Of a stretch of 64,000 bases of DNA, positions 411 to 29,049 are shown one piece after another. The stretch's first letter is position 1. Every line of letters begins with the position of its first letter. The DNA is from Dehalobacter sp. DCA (GTDB taxonomy: Bacteria > Bacillota > Desulfitobacteriia > Desulfitobacteriales > Syntrophobotulaceae), in assembly GCF_000305775.1 (NCBI RefSeq), contig NC_018866.1, positions 2,933,001 to 2,997,000 of the forward strand, written 5' to 3'. The notes under the pieces were generated by a model. The model saw only the letters and a list, made by a program, of their open reading frames with translations. It was not told the origin of the DNA and made no database searches. A program made the translations under genes and the position numbers.

Positions 411-760
411 GATGATTCCTCCAGTTCAATAATGTCTGTGGGATATTCTATGCAAATAGAACAGCTGGCGTTCTCCCGCCAAATCAGAAATGCGATGTTC
501 ATTACAATGCTCCGCTCACAGCGAAACTGTGTCCCTCAGACTGATCATAGGGATAATAAGCAGCTCTGCATATCAGGAATTAACTATCTATGTGTATATT
601 TATTCTAAGAATGTATTACTAGAATGAGATTGCTCATTAATAAATCCGCAGCAGAACGGGTTTAATCATTCGTTCCGCTGCGGATTCTATTTTAGAGAAA
701 GACGCCTTCAAATTGACGTCTTCCATCTGACTGAATAAAGATACTGTATCCTTTTCTATC
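411..760. other. intergenic region, ctpA to P-loop ATPase gene
   Basis: No convincing gene is seen here. The interval should hold the promoter of the minus-strand ATPase gene and the transcription end of ctpA. The only strong structure is the hairpin at 643-686. A 74-codon plus-strand open frame starting at 384 overlaps the start of the ATPase gene and has no ribosome site or recognisable content. Confidence 0.5.
643..686 (-). terminator. hairpin, likely ctpA terminator
   Basis: Two 16-base arms (643-658 and 671-686) pair with one mismatch around a 12-base loop. On the minus strand the stem is followed by a weak T-rich run, and on the plus strand by CTATTTT. It lies 75 bases downstream of the ctpA stop codon, so it most likely ends that transcript. 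Confidence 0.55.
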
Positions 761-1942
761 CTACCGGATTTTCTGCAGCAGGACTTCAACCGCCTTGCTC
801 AGCTGACTGTCGAAGACAGGCTCGGTCGGAAGGATGGTAGGCTTTTCTCCTTCTTTAAGTTCGACTTCAACATCAGGCTTGATTCCCAATTTATTAATAT
901 CATTTTTCTTCGGTGTAAGATATTTGTCCGTCGTCAGCTTTACGCTGGTGTTGCCATCAAGGGTAAACACGGTCTGCACGACACCCTTGCCATACGTCTT
1001 CGTCCCGACCAGGGTCCCGCTTCCGTAATCCTTGACTGCCCCCGATACGATTTCTGCTGCTGAGGCCGTATATTCGTTGGTTAAAATGACAATGGGCATA
1101 TTGATATATTCAGCAGTCGATTCTTTTGTATCTACGACGCCGTTCCTATTCACAATGTGAACGATCGACCCTTCCGGCACCAAAAAACTTGCTACTTTAA
1201 TCGCGGCATTGACTTCTCCTCCGTAATTATAACGAAGATCAATAATCAGGCCCTTATATTTGGTCAGATCCATCTCCCGTAAAACCTTCTCAAGTTCATC
1301 CCCGGTATTAATGTTAAAACTGGAGATATCAATCAACCCAATATCTGACCTTTCCGGCAGAGAGATCCCTTCAACCGTCGGAACATTGATATAGTCACGG
1401 ATAAGGCTTACGGTAAATTCTGTCTTCGTCTTCGGCCGGTAAATTTTAACCGTCACCTTGCTCCCGGGCTCTCCTCTTAAGATCGCGACTGCTTCATCCT
1501 GGCTGATCGTGGAGACATCGGTCTCGTCAATTTTTGTGATAATATCCCCCGCTTCGAGTCCTGCCCTATCAGCCGGAGAACCTTTGATTGGACGCATAAC
1601 AACCAATTTTTCCGGATCTGCCGTACTTAAATGTACACCGATCCCTCCAAAGGTGCCCTGAATCGAATTCATCAGCACTTTGTTTTCCTCAGCATCCTGG
1701 AAGGATGAATACGGGTCCAGCGAACCCACCATCCCGTCGATTGCCCCGTCAACGAGTCCAGCACGGGATGTTCCATTTAAATACTGGGTGTCAATAAGAT
1801 AGACCACCCGCATAAGTCTTCCAAGGTGATCATAATTGACCAGTACAAACCCGCCAACAACAAGTGCCAGCCCCAGACAAAATATCAGGCCGACTGCAGC
1901 GGCCTGTATAAAAGCTTTTTTCCAATTCACACGATTGAACAA
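761..1942 (-). CDS. ctpA: S41 family carboxy-terminal processing peptidase with PDZ domain
   Basis: A membrane-anchored serine protease that trims or degrades proteins on the outer face of the membrane. Residues 10-35 form one transmembrane helix. A PDZ domain follows at about 95-170 (GGIGVHLS, then SPADRAGLEAGDII), and then the S41 catalytic core. The nucleophile serine is in EYTASAAEIVSG and the catalytic lysine in TKTYGKG, as in CtpA/CtpB proteins. Length (393 aa) is normal for the family. It lies 72 bases downstream of an M23 peptidase gene, and the pair with ftsEX is a common Firmicute cell-envelope cluster. The link to spore signalling (CtpB of B. subtilis) is possible but not shown here. 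Confidence 0.92.
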   Translation of the reverse strand: MFNRVNWKKAFIQAAAVGLIFCLGLALVVGGFVLVNYDHLGRLMRVVYLIDTQYLNGTSRAGLVDGAIDGMVGSLDPYSSFQDAEENKVLMNSIQGTFGGIGVHLSTADPEKLVVMRPIKGSPADRAGLEAGDIITKIDETDVSTISQDEAVAILRGEPGSKVTVKIYRPKTKTEFTVSLIRDYINVPTVEGISLPERSDIGLIDISSFNINTGDELEKVLREMDLTKYKGLIIDLRYNYGGEVNAAIKVASFLVPEGSIVHIVNRNGVVDTKESTAEYINMPIVILTNEYTASAAEIVSGAVKDYGSGTLVGTKTYGKGVVQTVFTLDGNTSVKLTTDKYLTPKKNDINKLGIKPDVEVELKEGEKPTILPTEPVFDSQLSKAVEVLLQKIR

Positions 1943-2014
1943 ACGTCCACTTCCCTATCAAACTCATTATTCTCTGTTAGTATATGCAGACTTGTACAAG
2001 TTAAGTCCAATTGA

Positions 2015-3148
2015 TTAAAAATAGGCCATCGGGTTCGTCGGGGTGCCGTCTTTACGTACTTCAAAGTGCAGGTGAGCCCCAGTACTCCATCCCGTTGATC
2101 CAACATAACCGATTGTTTGGCCGGCTACCACTGTTGTCTTGACTGCAACCGCCCTTGAAGACATATGGCCGTAAAGTGTTGAAATTCCATTGCCGTGGTC
2201 GATAATAATGGCATTTCCATAGGCGCCGTACCAACCGGAAAAGATCACCGTACCGGATCCTGCTGCTACAATCTTCGCCCCGTATGGTGCACCGATATCG
2301 ACTCCGGTGTGCAGTTTATACTGTTTTGTTATCGGATGAACCCTGTATCCGAAAGTACTGGTAATATACTTGTATCCTGGAGCAGGCCAGACACTAACTG
2401 TCCCAGTAACTCCTCCGGTGTTGTTCTTCTGCAATTCACGGATTTTTGACTCAAGTGCTTTAGAGTCTCTCTCCAGCTTGTCAATTTGTTCGAGCAGCGC
2501 TTCCTGATCCTCTTTATTCTCAGCGAGTGCTACTTCTTTTTTTGACTTGCTGCTGTCCAAATAACTCTTAGCTGCTTCCGCCTGTTGTTTTAAGCTCTCC
2601 GCCTCATCCATTTTAGCGACTAGGAGTTCCTTCTTTTCATCTAAATCCTGTTTTTGAACACGGATATCACTTAAAATGGTTTGATCATTTTCAACTAGGC
2701 AGCTTAGATATTCTACTCTGGAAATGAAGTCGGATAAATCTGTGGATTGGAATAGGACTTCCAGATAGTTTACCTGACCTTCTTCATAGATCGCGCGTAC
2801 CCGACTGCGCAGAGTATCCTGTCTCCCTTTCAGTTCCTGCTGCTTGGCTGTCACTTCCGTTTGAATCGCCGTTACTTCTTCCTGGGCCTTCGCATGGGCG
2901 TTTTCTTTATGATCCAGATCCACTTCAGCGTCAGAAATTTGCGTCGTCAGTTGCCGAATCTGTTTCTCCATCTGTTGCGCTTTTGTCGTTAGGCTATTCA
3001 GGTTCCCTTCCGCGTTCTTCTGCTGATTCAGGATCTTTTCCTGCTGCTTAAGCGCATCAGACAGTTCATCCGCGGTCACAGGAAAATTGAAAGTAACCAT
3101 TAGAGTTAGAACAATCAGCAAAACAACCGGTCTTGTCATTTTAATCAT
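2015..3148 (-). CDS. murein hydrolase activator / M23 family peptidase with coiled coil
   Basis: Secreted cell-wall factor of 377 residues. An N-terminal hydrophobic signal sequence (to about residue 26) is followed by a long charged coiled coil (about 27-245) and a C-terminal LytM/M23 domain. The zinc-ligand signatures are HTGVDIGAPYG and GAHLHFEV. This layout matches EnvC/PcsB/CwlO-type partners of FtsEX, and ftsX-ftsE lie directly upstream in the same direction. It is therefore likely the hydrolase, or hydrolase activator, controlled by FtsEX. The G-rich ribosome site lies about 14 bases from the first ATG, which is longer than usual. No other in-frame start fits better. Confidence 0.88.
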   Translation of the reverse strand: MIKMTRPVVLLIVLTLMVTFNFPVTADELSDALKQQEKILNQQKNAEGNLNSLTTKAQQMEKQIRQLTTQISDAEVDLDHKENAHAKAQEEVTAIQTEVTAKQQELKGRQDTLRSRVRAIYEEGQVNYLEVLFQSTDLSDFISRVEYLSCLVENDQTILSDIRVQKQDLDEKKELLVAKMDEAESLKQQAEAAKSYLDSSKSKKEVALAENKEDQEALLEQIDKLERDSKALESKIRELQKNNTGGVTGTVSVWPAPGYKYITSTFGYRVHPITKQYKLHTGVDIGAPYGAKIVAAGSGTVIFSGWYGAYGNAIIIDHGNGISTLYGHMSSRAVAVKTTVVAGQTIGYVGSTGWSTGAHLHFEVRKDGTPTNPMAYF

Positions 3149-3221
3149 ATTTTACGCCATTCCCCCCCAATAAAACTCAAAGTTCGTTAACCTCGACGTC
3201 TAAAATCATGAAAAACTGATT

Positions 3222-4106
3222 TTAAAGGTTCAAAAATTTTCGTACAGAGAACGCACTTGCCAGAAATCCTATGGCAACACCGCCCAGAACCATCAGCAGA
3301 AGCACATTGATAATGAACTGTTGACTGCTGACAACAGGCAGGAAACTCAGGGTCGAGATAATATACTGCAGGAGCCAGGTATAGGTAGCCCCAACCAGCG
3401 CAACAGCCAGGATTGCCCCGACCATACCAATGACGATCCCTTCGATGATAAAAGGCCAACGAACAAAGGATTTGCTGGCGCCAACCAGGCGCATGATTTG
3501 AATCTCTTTCTCTCTGGAATTTACATTGGTTTTAATATTTAAAACAATTAAGAGGAAAGAGGCACAAGCAAATGTGGCAACAACGCCAATCCCGACCCAG
3601 CGAAGCCACTGAGTAAAGACAATCAGTTTCTCAACAAAGCCCTGCCCATAACGGACTTTCTCGACTCCGGTCAGCCCGCTTACCTGGGAAGTAATCTCTT
3701 CGACGAGACGGGCATCGGTCGTTGTAATTGTAATCTTATCCGGAAATGGGTTCACTCCGCCCAAATCCTCCAGAAGAGAGTCGGAACCCATGGATTCCTG
3801 AAACTCTATAATAGCCTGATCTTTAGTGGTAACGGCAACGGTTGCGACACCTTCAAGTTTTTGAATCTGACTTTTTAAATCGGTAATTTGTGATGTCTCC
3901 AGATGATCATTTAAAAACACAGCAATTTCTACCTGGGATTCAAAGGTCTCGGCAATGTTCGATGTGTTGACTAAAAAGAAAACCGAATAACCAACGATTG
4001 TTAAAGAAATCATCACTGTTAAAATGGATGCGGCACTGAGCCAGAAGTTTCTTTTCAATGATACCAGAGACTGGGTTAGAACATATTTTACTGAGTTAAG
4101 TGACAA
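3222..4106 (-). CDS. ftsX: cell division ABC transporter permease FtsX
   Basis: Membrane subunit of the FtsEX complex, which passes ATP hydrolysis by FtsE to cell-wall hydrolases outside. Residues 20-45 form the first membrane helix. An extracytoplasmic domain of about 120 residues follows, then three more helices near 170-195, 220-245 and 260-285. This is the standard four-helix FtsX topology, and 294 aa is the usual length. The start overlaps the end of ftsE by 11 bases, so the two are translationally coupled. Confidence 0.93.
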   Translation of the reverse strand: MSLNSVKYVLTQSLVSLKRNFWLSAASILTVMISLTIVGYSVFFLVNTSNIAETFESQVEIAVFLNDHLETSQITDLKSQIQKLEGVATVAVTTKDQAIIEFQESMGSDSLLEDLGGVNPFPDKITITTTDARLVEEITSQVSGLTGVEKVRYGQGFVEKLIVFTQWLRWVGIGVVATFACASFLLIVLNIKTNVNSREKEIQIMRLVGASKSFVRWPFIIEGIVIGMVGAILAVALVGATYTWLLQYIISTLSFLPVVSSQQFIINVLLLMVLGGVAIGFLASAFSVRKFLNL

Positions 4107-19185: not shown

Positions 19186-19440
19186 CTAATCCTCCGTATG
19201 CATATATTTCTTCTTGGTTGCTTCTCCTCCCCGAATATGCCTCTCGGCTTTATTGCTTTCAAGGACATGCTTGACCTGAGAGGAAAGTCGTTTGTTAATC
19301 AACGGCAATCTTTCCGTTACATCTTTATGTACCGTCGACTTGGATACCCCAAATATTTGCGCGGTCTGCCGCACTGTACAGCTCGATTCTATAATATAGT
19401 TGCCAATATCCAAAGCTCTTCTTTTGATATGTTCCTGCAC
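19186..19440 (-). CDS. spoIIID: sporulation transcriptional regulator SpoIIID
   Basis: DNA-binding protein that switches mother-cell gene expression after engulfment. The 84 residues contain a helix-turn-helix at about 21-45 (TVRQTAQIFGVSKSTVHKDV) and a basic C-terminal end, as in B. subtilis SpoIIID. Translation starts at GTG 19440 behind GGGGAGAGGGAGA. It stands upstream of mbl and, apart from the rdhA relic, downstream of spoIID, the usual spore-former order. Confidence 0.96.
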   Translation of the reverse strand: MQEHIKRRALDIGNYIIESSCTVRQTAQIFGVSKSTVHKDVTERLPLINKRLSSQVKHVLESNKAERHIRGGEATKKKYMHTED

Positions 19441-19523: not shown

Positions 19524-19705
19524 CCTTACTGGTAAATAATGTACACTGATTTGCAGGCAGGCACGCCTTTTTCCTAAATCAAGCCCGCTATGGCCTTTCA
19601 GTATGGTCTTCCCCTGCTTCTGATCTTTGAGTAAAGCATTAAACAAGAAGGTATTTATGCCTTTGATATTGCTCCATTTACTAATTCTTTTTTTTAACAG
19701 TGTTC

Positions 19706-19747
19706 AATGAAAAAAGAATTCCAGCGGTAGAAATTTATTCACCGCTG
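19706..19747 (-). terminator. terminator retained at the end of the rdhA relic
   Basis: CAGCGGT and ACCGCTG pair around a 12-base loop. On the minus strand the stem is followed shortly by TTCTTTTTTC. The relic's stop codon lies inside the hairpin. Confidence 0.6.
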
Positions 19748-20343
19748 AAAATTGTTCCATATCCAAACATATCATCAATTGACTTAAGGAATTTGGCAGA
19801 AGCCTCGCCATGGCTTCCAATAAAATTCCTGCTTCGTGGAACCAGGAATCCTCTTTCGAGTTCCACGGACAGACCTTCATGCAACGCCCGCAGAAAACAC
19901 CATCTTCGTTGGTTGCCCTGAATATAGTACACTTCTTCATATCACTATTCCCACGAAGGTAACCGTTATGCTCGATTGGATCCGCGTCCAGGGTAATTGC
20001 TTGGCTTGGACAATTTTCAGCACATTTTTTGCAGACCCTGCAGAAGTCCAGAAGCCCGAGATCTATTGGTTTATCCGGAGCTAGCGGCAAATCGGTAGTG
20101 GCGGCAGCCACTTCGTGTCTGAATCCCAAACGTGGATGAACTGTGCAGTCTCCGGTCCGGGAAAGTTCGCCCATGCCGGCCGCTATGTGGTGGGTGGCAT
20201 AATCGCTGCATAATTATGGGCATGGTGTGCTCTGGCGTCATAGCCCCGGCTTCTTTTTGACACATAATTGTCTATAATCTCAAAAACAATTTCTACATCT
20301 TTTTTAAAGATTTCTGAAAGTTGTTGTCTGGTAAAGTATTTAT
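19735..20343 (-). pseudogene. reductive dehalogenase (rdhA) C-terminal remnant, frameshifted
   Basis: Reading the minus strand in three linked frames gives about 200 residues of a reductive dehalogenase C-terminus. The order is [20 protein letters not shown]; then, after a frameshift near 20185-20198, [25 protein letters not shown] and both iron-sulfur motifs ([13 protein letters not shown] and [10 protein letters not shown]); then, after a second frameshift near 19825, [19 protein letters not shown] and the stop. An in-frame stop cuts off the upstream side near 20345, and the signal peptide and most of the cobamide-binding domain are missing. Intact RdhA proteins are about 450-550 residues. 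No rdhB anchor gene is present. It lies where spore-formers often have spoIIQ-like genes. It is clearly non-functional. Confidence 0.87.
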
Positions 20344-20446
20344 ATGTTTAACAAGCTGCTGCTTTCGATTTTTCTTTGTGTCTCGTGCTTTATCAGCGAT
20401 CTGCATCTTTATGTGATCGGTATCATTGCAGTTATTCTTTAATTTA

Positions 20447-21382
20447 TCAGTAAGTCTTTTCAAGTTTTGTCCCTTGATAATAATGTCCCAGGATTTCCAT
20501 GTACGATTCGCCTTTTAGAGCCAGGTCATTGGCCCCGTATTGTGACATTCCGACTCCGTGTCCTTTGCCGTACGTAACAAACTCAATTTCTGTTCCGCGG
20601 GTCTCCCATTCAAAATCGGTTGAGGAAAGCTGAAGCTTGCTCCGCAGTTCCGTTCCCTTGAAAACTTTGTTTCTGACAGCCAGTGTCTTTACCCGACCGG
20701 CTTTCGTCCTTTCAATTAGGATAACATCACTGTCCGAAAACTTTTCCGGGATCTGGGTGAAACCAAGAAGCTGGTAAAATTCAGCACACTGAAAGATCTG
20801 ATGTTTGACGAACCGTAGCGAATCACTTTCGCCAGACGGCACATTTTTGAGATAATCCAGATCTGTACTCCAAACGTCTCCAGCCCGCTCAGTCTTTTTC
20901 CGGCCGCAGCTGCTGTAGAAAAACGCATTAATCATTTTTCCCTGATACGTAACAACCTTCCCCTGTGTAGCTTTAACCGCATCTGCAATTTTGCGCTGGT
21001 ATTTCCAGTAGTTGATGATTCCCCATTTTGTCCGCATTTCTTCATTGGTATTCCAGGCCTGCGTATTGACAGTGGTGTCCACATCAAAGTCGCTGCCCGC
21101 AGCGGATTCCATCCTTTTCAGTACATAGGTCCTGGCGGCAACAGCCTGGGCCTTTAACGCCTCTGCTTCAAACTCGGCAGGCATTTCGGCTGCAACTACC
21201 CCGACCAGGTATTCCTCTATGGGTATTGCTCTGATCTGGCCGTCTGCCAGTTTGACCCTTACCGTTATTCCCGGATCGTCCTGGTCTTCCCCCCCAAACC
21301 AACTGATAAGCACGGGCAGTATTCCTACAAAAAAGATAACGGCCATGACAGCGGCCGTTATTGTTTTCATTCTTTTACTCAC
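20447..21382 (-). CDS. spoIID: stage II sporulation protein D
   Basis: Lytic transglycosylase of the engulfment machinery (DMP), which cuts peptidoglycan as the mother-cell membrane moves round the forespore. After an N-terminal membrane anchor (about residues 5-25), the SpoIID domain shows EEYLVGVVAAEMPAEFEAEA with the catalytic glutamate, LKAQAVAARTY, and the terminal GKGHGVGMSQYGA. I start it at GTG 21382, where AGGAGG stands seven bases upstream. A longer frame to 21427 has no such site. Confidence 0.94.
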   Translation of the reverse strand: MSKRMKTITAAVMAVIFFVGILPVLISWFGGEDQDDPGITVRVKLADGQIRAIPIEEYLVGVVAAEMPAEFEAEALKAQAVAARTYVLKRMESAAGSDFDVDTTVNTQAWNTNEEMRTKWGIINYWKYQRKIADAVKATQGKVVTYQGKMINAFFYSSCGRKKTERAGDVWSTDLDYLKNVPSGESDSLRFVKHQIFQCAEFYQLLGFTQIPEKFSDSDVILIERTKAGRVKTLAVRNKVFKGTELRSKLQLSSTDFEWETRGTEIEFVTYGKGHGVGMSQYGANDLALKGESYMEILGHYYQGTKLEKTY

Positions 21383-21460
21383 GTTTTGGCCTCCTGTGCA
21401 GTACAAGCATATCCTATTTGTATGCACAGGAGGGCAGCGATATGATACAAACGAAGTCGG

Positions 21461-24166: not shown

Positions 24167-24850
24167 TCACTTTGCAGAATAACATTCTTTGAAACTAAGA
24201 TATCCAATCCGCTTGAATCGCTCATTGGATAGGGCTTTCGTCAAAATCGGGCTATGGGCTATGCGCCAATAGCCTTTTCTTGTGTTTGCCCACATCCATG
24301 CTTGGGTTTCTTTTATACCCGCTTTCTTGAGGTTTTCATAACGTGTTCGAATTTTCTTCCATCGTTTCCAAGTCACCATTCTTATACGACTTCTTAGCCA
24401 TTCGTCTAAGTCCCCAAGCAAACTCCTTGCGTCTGCAAATTTGAAGTAATTTGTCCATCCTCGCACTACCTGATTGAGTTTTATTCGGCGTTCTTCGATT
24501 CCCATCCCGTTACTACGCCCAGTTACCTCTCGGATTTTGTCTTTGAGTTTCTGGATGCTCCTCGGATGGATTCTCAGCCGCCCTTCTCCCCGGTAGATAT
24601 AGAAGCTATATCCCAGATACTTGACATAGTTTACATGTGAGACCCTCGTTTTCTCCCTGTTGACCCTAAGAAATAGCTTTCCTTCGATGAACGGAAGAAT
24701 GTGGTCTAGCGTACGTCTTGCCGCTTTCTTACTTTTGCAGAAGATCATCATATCGTCTGCATAACGTACAAAGCGGTGTCCTCGCTGTTCTAACTCATGG
24801 TCACATTCGTTGAGCATAATATTGCCTAGCAATGGGCTTAAGGGGCCGCC
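24167..24850 (-). pseudogene. ltrA: group II intron maturase, C-terminal half
   Basis: Downstream half of the intron reverse transcriptase. It begins at the inserted element's edge with PLSPLLGNIMLNE, which completes the QGG-PLSP motif of the other half. It then shows the catalytic YADD motif (RYADDMMIF), the thumb/X domain (RGWTNYFKFAD) and a short terminal domain. No HNH endonuclease is present, in line with class C introns. It has no start signal of its own, so the encoded protein is split and presumably inactive unless the insert is removed. Confidence 0.9.
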
Positions 24851-24932
24851 TTATGCAAAGTAAATGATTATGCAAAGTAAATCCCTAAAGCTACCGTGTT
24901 TCGGGTGTTTCATCAAGATTTACTTTGCATAA
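24851..24932. repeat. RIT element left-end repeat array
   Basis: TTATGCAAAGTAAAT occurs as two direct copies (24851-24865 and 24868-24882, 17-base period). Its exact inverse lies at 24918-24932, 35 bases after the second copy. The inverted pair 24868/24918 has the same 35-base spacing as the pair at the other end, so it is probably the recombinase recognition site. Confidence 0.85.
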
Positions 24933-24940
24933 TATCTGGA

Positions 24941-25954
24941 CTACTTGAGATTCGAAAGCCAGACAAGTAATGCAGCATCTTTATTCCAATCAGGAAGATT
25001 ACTATCTACCAAATCTGGATAGGCATTCTCAATAGCCTTGCGTTTCAACTCAGAATCACACTTTGCATAAATTTCGGTGGTTTTGATATCCTCATGCCCA
25101 AGAAAGTCTCGGATATAGATAAGGTTGACACCGGCCTGCAGCAGGTGCATGCTTTTCGAATGTCGAAACATATGGGGCATCACTTTCTCCGGCACAATCG
25201 TGGATATCTTTCTTGCTAAACTAACGTACTGAGAAATAATGTAAGCTATGCCTTCCTTTGTGAGCTTGTTGTGCTGCTTATTAATAAAGAGAGGATAATC
25301 ACTTTTCCAGGGCTTATCAAGGGAATTCTCCTGAATATAATGCTCCAACAAAGTCATAGTGTTTTTCATCAGTGGAACCCTTCGTACCTTATTACCTTTT
25401 CCTGTAAGGATAAGTACTGCTGGATTATTGAGTACAACATCACGCACCTTGAGGTCGGCTAATTCCTGCACCCTGCATCCGGAGTCGTAAAGGACGCTTA
25501 ACAGTGTTAGATCTCGTCTGCCTTTTGATGTCATCTTGCCAGGCTGTGATAATAAAAGTTTCATTGCCTCAGGCGTCAGATGTGGTACCGATGGTTTGGA
25601 TGTCTTCTTAATTGGTATGGCTATTACCTTTTGGAAATGAAGTATTCCTGACGGTTCTTCGTACTGTGCATACCGGTAAAAGGAATGTATGGCTGCAAGC
25701 CTCTGATTCCGAGTTGCAATGCTGCACTTGCGACTTTTTTCAATCCATTCCAAGAAATCAGTAATCAGCCCATTTGTCAGCATACTCATCTTCAGCTTTT
25801 CGACAGGGATGTCCCTCTGTTCCTGACAATACCGGATTAATAATTTAAAGGTATCACGGTAGGACGCTATTGTATTTCTGCTTGCATTTTTCTGCCCGGG
25901 CAGATATATGGAAAGGAATTCTGTAAGGTAGGTAGCAAAATCAGTCGGTTTCAT
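24941..25954 (-). CDS. tyrosine recombinase, third gene of RIT element
   Basis: Phage-integrase-type recombinase that breaks and rejoins DNA through a tyrosine. Catalytic residues are arginine in SGCRVQELADL, HMFRH with the box II histidine and arginine, the histidine in LGHEDIKTTEIY, and the tyrosine of the same segment. An N-terminal SAM-like core-binding domain covers about residues 1-100. The ATG at 25954 is chosen, with GGAAGG nearby. The overlap with the preceding gene is then 14 bases. All four catalytic positions look intact. Confidence 0.86.
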   Translation of the reverse strand: MKPTDFATYLTEFLSIYLPGQKNASRNTIASYRDTFKLLIRYCQEQRDIPVEKLKMSMLTNGLITDFLEWIEKSRKCSIATRNQRLAAIHSFYRYAQYEEPSGILHFQKVIAIPIKKTSKPSVPHLTPEAMKLLLSQPGKMTSKGRRDLTLLSVLYDSGCRVQELADLKVRDVVLNNPAVLILTGKGNKVRRVPLMKNTMTLLEHYIQENSLDKPWKSDYPLFINKQHNKLTKEGIAYIISQYVSLARKISTIVPEKVMPHMFRHSKSMHLLQAGVNLIYIRDFLGHEDIKTTEIYAKCDSELKRKAIENAYPDLVDSNLPDWNKDAALLVWLSNLK

Positions 25955-26927
25955 CGGCACTACCTTCCAGTCTTGGAATGATGTCTGGATAACATCCTTC
26001 CAATTTGATAGATATGTCCGGAAAAACATCAGCAGTCAGCCTAAGGTAATACGCTGTTTCCTCAAAAGAATCATGCCCCATATATGTTTTCAGTACTGGA
26101 AGATATGCTGCAAGGTCTTTTCCTTGTATAACCCAATTTTTTAGGCAGTGACACGCGTATGCATGTCGAAAATCTTGGACTCTCGGTCCTTTTCCCCTCC
26201 CGCCGTGAGAAATGCCAACTCTCCATAAAAAACGCCTGAAATTGTGGTAAACGTTCCCTAAAGTCATTGGTTTTCCATTTAATCCTGGGAAGAACCAATC
26301 AGTTTCTTTTAAGAACATATGCACATTCGCAGAAAAATTCCGGCATCGTTCTGTAAGTTCGTCTGACATCGGAACCAATCGGCTGTTATCTTTCTTTGAA
26401 TGATGAATGGACAGTATGCCTGTTTCAAGATTCACATCTGATACTTTCAGGAGTCTTGCTTCTGAGGAACGAAGGCCACAGGAATAAACCATACGAAAGA
26501 ATACTGGCATGATGAGGTGGCGATATGGACATTCACTGACATAGTGGCATTGATCTGTCTCATGGAAGAAACGCTGCAGTTCATTTTCCGTATAGATATG
26601 AGGCACATATTGTTCTTCCGTGGGGTAATAGCCTTTCGGTAGGACGTATGCGCCAATCTCCACACTGTCCATATATATGGCAAGTTGCCGTAGGATCGAA
26701 GCCCTCGTACACTGATTGGCCTGTGCCTCATAACATTTTTTTGAGCACCAATCTAACACTATTTCCTTTGTAAGCATTGTTGCTTCAGGATATTTTTGTT
26801 CAGTAAAGGAAGAAAACCGCAATAGATGCCTTGCTTCTGCCTCATATTTGTAGCCGATTGCTTTCTTCAGGGAGACATGGTTTTCAATATGCTCTGCAAA
26901 TGGTCCTTTAAACAGGTAATTACTCAT
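25941..26927 (-). CDS. tyrosine recombinase, second gene of RIT element
   Basis: Second recombinase of the trio, about 328 residues. The box I arginine is in CGLRSSEARLL and the terminal histidine and tyrosine are in MGHDSFEETAYYL. Box II reads VQDFRH, so the usual histidine three residues before the arginine is glutamine here. The gene begins at ATG 26927 (or 26933), inside the end of the first recombinase gene and behind GGAGG, so translation is coupled. Its exact role within the trio is not known. Confidence 0.86.
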   Translation of the reverse strand: MSNYLFKGPFAEHIENHVSLKKAIGYKYEAEARHLLRFSSFTEQKYPEATMLTKEIVLDWCSKKCYEAQANQCTRASILRQLAIYMDSVEIGAYVLPKGYYPTEEQYVPHIYTENELQRFFHETDQCHYVSECPYRHLIMPVFFRMVYSCGLRSSEARLLKVSDVNLETGILSIHHSKKDNSRLVPMSDELTERCRNFSANVHMFLKETDWFFPGLNGKPMTLGNVYHNFRRFLWRVGISHGGRGKGPRVQDFRHAYACHCLKNWVIQGKDLAAYLPVLKTYMGHDSFEETAYYLRLTADVFPDISIKLEGCYPDIIPRLEGSADETD

Positions 26928-28155
26928 ACACATCCACCTCCGGAGTACCTAAACAGCATTCCTTCAGTTTATTGACATCCACTTTCAAATAAACAGCCGT
27001 GGAGTCCGTGTTGGTATGACCCAGTATATCTGATATAACAGCAAGAGGGGTGTCATGCTCAAGCATTCTTGAAGCCGCCGTATGGCGAAGCGAATGCATA
27101 CCCCGGTGCTTTTTCAAGGTCGGCAGATGGGCAATCCGCATATAATCTCGAATTAACTGATGCAGATGATCACTTTCTGAAAAAGGCAGAAATGGTGCCA
27201 AATGTCTCACAAATACAATCGGTGAATCAATTTTGGGCCTGCCATATTTCAGATAATCGATGACAGCCCATCCCACTTCAGAAGGAATTGGTAGGTTGAC
27301 TGTTTCCCTTGTTTTTGACTGGGCGAATATCAGTTTATTTTCTTCCCAGCGGAAACAACCAAAAGTAAGGTTTTTGATATCATTAACCCTAAGACCTAAC
27401 ACGCAAGCTAGAAGAATAATGGCATAGTCCCGTTTCCCCTTTGGATTTCCACGGTCAATGGCACCTATCAGTAAGTCCAATTCTTCTTTCGTCCAGACAG
27501 ATGGGATGCGTGTCTGTTTACGAGCCTGAACCATTGGTGTCTTGGATGCCAAGTCTGTTTTCAGGATGTCCTGCTCCTGTAAATATCTTAAAAATGAACG
27601 TATGGAACATATGATTTGTTCCACAGTTTTATAGGTATACCCAGCTAGTGTTCGGATATAGCTGTTGATAACAGGGAGCCTAATATCATAGCAGTGACTG
27701 ATTCCTTGAGAAATAAGATAATCCATGAAACGCTGCGATTGTTTCACGTAATGTTCAACCGTCACCTTGGAATAATCTTTGCGTTCGCAGTATTTTTTGA
27801 AATCGTTGCTGATATCTATGTAATACGAATCGGTAAGCAATTCTCGATGTTTATAATACCGTCTTAAAACAGTGCGGTGGAGCTGGAAGTCGCCTACTAT
27901 CCGGATGACACGCAGCTCCTGAGTATCGCGCTGAGAAAGAGTTTTTTCAAAATCCTTTTTCCAAATGTCGAAGTATTTTTCAATGAAGTCAATTCCAAGC
28001 TGCTCGCTGAAGTATACTTCAGCACGTGACTTGGCAAATTCCATAAGCATCTGCCAACGCCGGCGATAAAACTTTAATGTAGCTTCTGTATAGCCGAGGC
28101 GCTTCATTTCCTGCTCAAGTTCTTCTAGAAGTACTGGTAACGGTTTGTTATGCAT
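26920..28155 (-). CDS. tyrosine recombinase, first gene of RIT element
   Basis: First and longest recombinase of the trio (411 aa). The N-terminal half is a larger DNA-binding region. The catalytic half has LGLRVNDIKNL, the box lysine in AQSKTRETVNL, HSLRHTAASRM, and LGHTNTDSTAVYL with the nucleophilic tyrosine. All expected residues are present. It starts about 55 bases inside the right-end repeat array, so a promoter would overlap the recombination sites and might couple expression to the state of the element. Confidence 0.87.
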   Translation of the reverse strand: MHNKPLPVLLEELEQEMKRLGYTEATLKFYRRRWQMLMEFAKSRAEVYFSEQLGIDFIEKYFDIWKKDFEKTLSQRDTQELRVIRIVGDFQLHRTVLRRYYKHRELLTDSYYIDISNDFKKYCERKDYSKVTVEHYVKQSQRFMDYLISQGISHCYDIRLPVINSYIRTLAGYTYKTVEQIICSIRSFLRYLQEQDILKTDLASKTPMVQARKQTRIPSVWTKEELDLLIGAIDRGNPKGKRDYAIILLACVLGLRVNDIKNLTFGCFRWEENKLIFAQSKTRETVNLPIPSEVGWAVIDYLKYGRPKIDSPIVFVRHLAPFLPFSESDHLHQLIRDYMRIAHLPTLKKHRGMHSLRHTAASRMLEHDTPLAVISDILGHTNTDSTAVYLKVDVNKLKECCLGTPEVDVYE

Positions 28156-28209
28156 AAGAATCCCTCCAAAAAGATATTTTGAGTTAATTACTCATTATCA
28201 TTTTGGACA

Positions 28210-28318
28210 TTATGCAAAGTAAATTTAACATAACTTCAGATTCCATCAGTGTTTCACGACTTTACTTTGCATAACTACTTTCTTTGCATAAGGTGGATTA
28301 TGCAAAGCTTAGCATAAA
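28210..28318. repeat. RIT element right-end repeat array
   Basis: TTATGCAAAGTAAAT at 28210-28224 faces an inverse copy at 28260-28274 (first base mismatched) across 35 bases. Shorter copies follow: CTTTGCATAA at 28282-28291, TTATGCAAAG at 28298-28307, and GCATAA within 28311-28318 at the outer edge. The 35-base spacing equals that of the left end, while the outer short copies differ in number and orientation between ends. Confidence 0.85.
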
Positions 28319-29049
28319 CCCCCTTGCGGTACACCCTCCGGACTTTCTTCAAACAGTCCATCCACTAAAACTCCTGCTCTCAGGAATTTATGGATGAGCG
28401 AGATAACCCGTCCATCTTTTATCGTTTCGGATAAAATTTGGACCAACTTGCTCTGGTTGACCGTATCAAAATACTTTTCCAAATCCATGTCGACGACATA
28501 TTTATAGCCCTCTGTGATTTGTTTTTGGCATTTTCTCAATGCATCATGTGCGCTTCGATTTGGTCGAAATCCAAAACTGCTATTCGAAAACTGCTTCTCG
28601 AAGATTGGACTCAGGACTTGCGTAATCGCTTGTTGGATTAGCCTGTCAACGACGGTAGGTATTCCTAGTTTTCTTGTTTTTCCGTTATCTTTGGGTATTT
28701 CTACCCTCCGTACGGGTTGTGGACGGTACTTACCGTCCCAGAGGGATTCTATGAGTTCATCCCTGTGGTCTCTTAGGAAGGGTAGAAGTTCATCCACCTG
28801 CATGCCATCGATTCCACCTGCGCCTTTATTTCTCTTCACCTGCTTGTACGCTCGGTTTAGATTTTCGGCGCTAAGAATTTGCTCGAGTAATCCTTCTTTC
28901 TGCTCATCTGTGTTGGTGCTATCGGGTTCAGTCATCTTGGGCGGCGCGCACTCTTCTGCATACTCTTTCTGTTCCGCAGATACCCTTTGCAGATAGTCTT
29001 CAATTTGAAGTTGTCTGTGTTTTGAATTGCCACTTTCAGTAACTTTCAT
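28309..29049 (-). pseudogene. ltrA: group II intron maturase, N-terminal half
   Basis: Upstream half of the intron reverse transcriptase (RT0 to RT4). It starts at ATG 29049 and shows NKGAGGIDGM, the RT2 region (GKTRKLGIPTVVDRLIQQAI), SSFGFRPNRSAHDAL and the RT3 aspartate region (VVDMDLEKYFDTVN). It reaches GVPQGG and is then cut off by the RIT insertion, adding only Leu-Cys before a stop. The catalytic YADD is in the other half, so this fragment alone cannot be active. Confidence 0.9.

Follow-up and report, generated by a model that had tools for sequence, protein, structure and literature searches.

An rdhA remnant between spoIID and spoIIID

Between two intact sporulation genes of Dehalobacter sp. 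DCA, spoIID (20447-21427, minus strand) and spoIIID (19186-19440, minus strand), lies the remnant of an rdhA rather than an rdhA (19753-20254, minus strand). It keeps both C-terminal 4Fe-4S motifs, is interrupted by two frameshifts and is truncated at both ends. Unless they lie beyond it, positions refer to the window, namely the whole stretch of 64,000 nucleotides that we analysed, which belongs to a single-contig genome of 3,069,953 bp. The longest frame still open in the relic (19704-20174, minus strand) encodes 156 amino acids, holds both Fe-S motifs and is RdhA-like over its first ~120 residues only. It matched the reductive dehalogenase model TIGR02486 with E = 3e-43 and 148.9 bits, just short of the full-length cut-off (160.35), in keeping with a fragment, and the second-best family, QueG, came far behind (8e-7). 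A TIGR02486 scan of the whole genome also recovered the locus (1.9e-44); PF13486 alone was far less sensitive and yielded no more than three weak matches genome-wide. A previous sequence-only reading of this DNA had proposed a broken rdhA with both motifs, two frameshifts and a truncated N-terminal side, and had suggested checking for a better match in another iron-sulfur protein family. These proposals agree with our results, and RdhA remained the best match.

Intact RdhA proteins aligned to neighbouring parts of the relic in three separate frames (20290-20189, 20186-19797, and 19827-19753), which implies two frameshifts. As seen in the alignment of the relic copies, the first of these one-base frameshifts (20187-20193, minus strand) is shared with another Dehalobacter genome, G003, and the second (19821-19828, minus strand) is private to the window genome, being absent from both G003 and a further genome, G001. 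The Fe-S motifs are found at 20042-20010 and 19892-19869, the latter reading CGRCMKVCP. The homology to RdhA amounts to roughly 167 codons; the ~200 codons estimated previously had good coordinates but included about 30 that belong to a CprK-type regulator. Likewise, the C-terminus had been described as retained, which is correct for the C-terminal part with its two motifs but not for the 3′ end of the gene itself: homology breaks off at GYGT without reaching the WWLEWPE found in close intact paralogs. On the N-terminal side more than 200 codons are missing, corresponding to the N-terminal half of RdhA (the Tat signal and the beginning of the catalytic domain), and a scrap of the regulator gene stands upstream instead.

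Our genome scan with TIGR02486 revealed 17 further rdhA with long open frames elsewhere in the genome, confirming the earlier deduction that this lineage has organohalide respiration genes; the published description of strain DCA lists 17 rdhA in 3.06 Mb (PMC4751268). As had been recommended, we looked among them for the nearest match to the relic, which showed about 74% identity in DNA, and the nearest intact relatives reached about 82% protein identity over 120 residues. In phylogenetic analysis the relic branched near a group containing L045, L046, and L011, with weak support (86/52), so that no living ortholog was identified. An intact Dehalobacter RdhA (L009, with its orthologs L040, L042, and L043) resembles the relic in sequence (~82% protein identity) and has the same Fe-S motifs. 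However, its genes are intact and change almost only at third codon positions, and it is a paralog, not an ortholog. Elsewhere in the window (24167-29049, minus strand), three recombinase-like ORFs in tandem apparently interrupt a gene for a group II intron reverse transcriptase/maturase, leaving it in two parts (28309-29049 and 24167-24832). Two of these ORFs (24941-26029 and 25941-26933) match Phage_integrase and the third (26920-28155) was judged by eye; together they appear to resemble a recombinase-in-trio element that has entered the ORF of an intron.

Scraps of a CprK-type regulator and of an ECF transporter gene

The scrap that shares its reading frame with the first segment of the rdhA relic (about 20258-20347, minus strand) is a fossil of a CprK-type Crp/Fnr regulator gene. 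Its reading frame, YFTRQQLSEIFKKDVEIVFEIIDNYVSK, matches the middle of these regulators, its 34 residues corresponding to about residues 113-146 of the ~243 of a CprK-like protein. It was first noticed through 52 bp of DNA that match a regulator gene in G003. When the DCA genome was searched at the protein level with a CprK relative, a match appeared at 20246-20347 (E = 3.8e-4). Five CprK relatives, including three encoded by the same genome, aligned at one internal segment and scored up to 37 bits, compared with 21.9 bits for the highest of 200 shuffled controls. In contrast with the CprK-type Crp/Fnr regulators encoded beside rdhA genes, only a fragment of about 30 residues survives here, without a full effector domain and with the DNA-binding domain gone. 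A cprK upstream of rdhA on the same strand is a normal layout in this genome (e.g., at genome positions 2436324-2436983 and 2434280-2435104, both on the minus strand), so the fusion is accounted for by a deletion within an ordinary cluster. In the Dehalobacter papers that we consulted, we found no description of a regulator scrap or an ECF operon between spoIID and spoIIID, and a regulator scrap putatively fused to rdhA by internal deletion would be new with the present analysis.

On the strand opposite to spoIID, 77 bp (20352-20428, plus strand) are a fossil of ecfT, the gene for the transmembrane component of an ECF transporter, and show 81-84% identity to the inside of the intact ecfT of two other Dehalobacter genomes, G004 and G002. 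In the latter two, the spoIID-spoIIID interval measures about 3.8 kb and contains a full four-gene ECF operon comprising ecfT (PF02361), two ECF ATPase genes and a TrpP-like S component (PF17099), whereas only the 77 bp of ecfT are left in the window. The operon occupies positions 3941-6940 of L075 in G002 and 2666-5654 of L077 in G004. The S component was searched for in the window genome, G001, and G003 and was absent from each of them. The ecfT scrap, together with the intact operon of G002 and G004, indicates that the transporter operon stood at this locus before the rdh DNA.

The earlier reading had held that a spoIIQ-like gene is often found in this place. Our comparison did not support this: none was present in 11 genomes from other genera of the family, in which spoIID and spoIIID are 110-198 bp apart with nothing between them. 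A more distant family member (L118 in G023, 538-3877) has a 3.3 kb gap there with two long ORFs (431 and 422 aa) of similar start, possibly a tandem duplication.

Beyond the rdhA homology, a terminator-like hairpin (CAGCGGT..ACCGCTG) followed by a T run is found at 19722-19747 (minus strand). It folds strongly, with z = -4.0 in the window and -5.3 in G003, where it also occurs, and the locus itself was the sole match to the exact hairpin in the genome. The relic had been said to end in a terminator hairpin; the fold is strong, but no native rdhA end precedes it and it was not among the predictions of the terminator scan. The hairpin may still end transcription coming from spoIID, and its deletion in G001 shows that it is dispensable there. 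The adjacent DNA of the replaced interval (19560-19709, without assigned strand) is common to G001 and G003, the window copy lacking ~35 bp that both of these keep. It matched no Pfam family, and no relative of it turned up elsewhere in the genus; it covers ~150 bp beyond the hairpin, which blurs the 3′ boundary of the insert. Rfam searches of this locus in four relatives returned nothing at gathering score; in the window they gave a single weak match, well under the threshold.

Shared ancestry and neutral decay of the relic

We also compared the spoIID-spoIIID interval in relatives, as had been proposed. The same relic occurs at the same place in G001 and G003, each with private indels: that of G003 is collinear over all 777 bp with 96% identity, and that of G001 has a further 284-bp deletion. 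The identity of spoIID to that of the window is 98-99% in G001 and G003, 92% in G002, and 67% in G004, in agreement with one event in the branch uniting the window genome, G001, and G003. Our genus-level comparison covered five Dehalobacter genomes, a sample that does not fix the order of ECF operon loss and rdh arrival, and none of the five had an intact rdhA between spoIID and spoIIID.

Differences among the relic copies were spread over the three codon positions (3/6/3, 9/3/5, and 9/7/4), and those of an intact orthologous rdhA control were concentrated in the third (7/2/45 and similar). Moreover, the codon for the final cysteine in the second Fe-S motif, TGT in the window, is TAT in G001 and has been lost to a deletion in G003. 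Substitutions even across codon positions and the loss of a ligand cysteine point to neutral decay and, together with a frame disrupted by frameshifts and private indels, characterize the locus as a pseudogene.

The relic is most likely already on record in a sister strain. In D. restrictus PER-K23, Dehre_2792 is listed as a partial rdhA (PMC3910700, Table 5), with a footnote stating that the sequence is conserved in strain E1, where the gene is not annotated (PMC3910700). Only one of the papers searched names this locus tag. The relic of G001 is located at 2.830 Mb, close to the position expected for locus number 2792 among 2908, and this genome position suggests that Dehre_2792 is most likely the orthologous locus and thus already known as a partial gene. 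It differs from the window copy in lacking the 284 bp, with the regulator and ecfT scraps, that are kept in the window. Other truncated Dehalobacter rdhA, Dehre_0808, Dehre_0815, Dehre_2012, and Dehre_2058 (PMC3910700), are similarly broken copies in an rdhA-rich genus; however, they sit inside the two rdh clusters, whereas the window relic is isolated in a block of sporulation genes.

Origin of the locus

We consider it about 90% probable that the locus is a dead gene remnant without function of its own, left by rdh DNA that replaced an ECF operon and then decayed. The earlier reading had described an rdhA lost within a sporulation block; the decay was seen correctly, and the arrival of the gene, the replacement of the ECF operon and the fusion with the regulator were missed. 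In the simplest history compatible with the identity and order of the pieces, their common place in three genomes and the neutral pattern of their changes, the spoIID-spoIIID interval would have been short at first and an ECF operon would have arrived in Dehalobacter. In the ancestor of three Dehalobacter lineages, DNA with a CprK-type regulator and an rdhA would then have entered the interval, by illegitimate recombination or on mobile DNA, and the ECF operon would have been lost there except for the 77 bp of ecfT. We infer that the regulator scrap and the rdhA piece arrived together. A deletion reaching from the middle of the regulator into that of rdhA would have fused the two and removed all that lay between, the 3′ end of rdhA would have been lost as well, and decay without selection would have followed, with separate indels in each lineage.

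Alternatively, only a fragment of an rdh cluster might have been inserted, already dead on arrival, and an intact cluster would never have stood at the locus. The absence of an intact rdhA here in the five genomes and the only ~80% protein identity of the nearest intact relatives are in line with such an insertion, and nothing decisive speaks against it; nevertheless, the scraps of cprK and rdhA in their usual order and strand are equally compatible with a deletion inside a complete cluster, and we regard the arrival of a mere fragment as possible but rather unlikely. Taken alone, the window copy, with all its Fe-S cysteines, its open 156-aa frame and both 4Fe-4S motifs, could even suggest function, namely as a small ferredoxin-like protein that arose from the Fe-S domain of an RdhA and is maintained by selection. 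However, orthologous copies carry indels inside this frame, and promoter-like sites do not exceed the shuffled background. The codon-position pattern and the cysteine loss led us to reject this reading, which appears very improbable. Finally, an error in the sequence or assembly of an intact rdhA, conceivable for a genome assembled from an enrichment-culture metagenome (PMC4751268), can be dismissed almost with certainty because separate assemblies share the structure, with the same truncated piece, regulator fusion and identical frameshift near 20190 in G003 and a shorter form in G001, and because no base error explains the loss of the >200 N-terminal codons.

The dead remnant is an ordinary pseudogene, most likely known already from a sister strain, with a somewhat richer history than previously perceived. 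Dehalobacter genomes contain 10-40 rdhA genes each (PMC11578063), so broken copies are expected and mean little alone; pseudogenes and truncated genes were excluded from the pangenome study of this genus (PMC11578063). As a marker, the relic allows one gain and loss of rdh DNA to be dated to the ancestor of three Dehalobacter lineages, and it shows that sites outside the two known rdh regions are also visited by rdh clusters. We tentatively propose that the spoIID-spoIIID interval might be a recurrent landing site in Dehalobacter, where an ECF operon with a TrpP-like component was replaced by an organohalide respiration cluster that has since died. If so, it would record a datable move of an rdh cluster outside the two known regions, at a site where a nutrient uptake system was lost. 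This rdh event is also tied to the disappearance of an ECF transporter whose S component is TrpP-like, which may bear on the nutrient needs of these bacteria.
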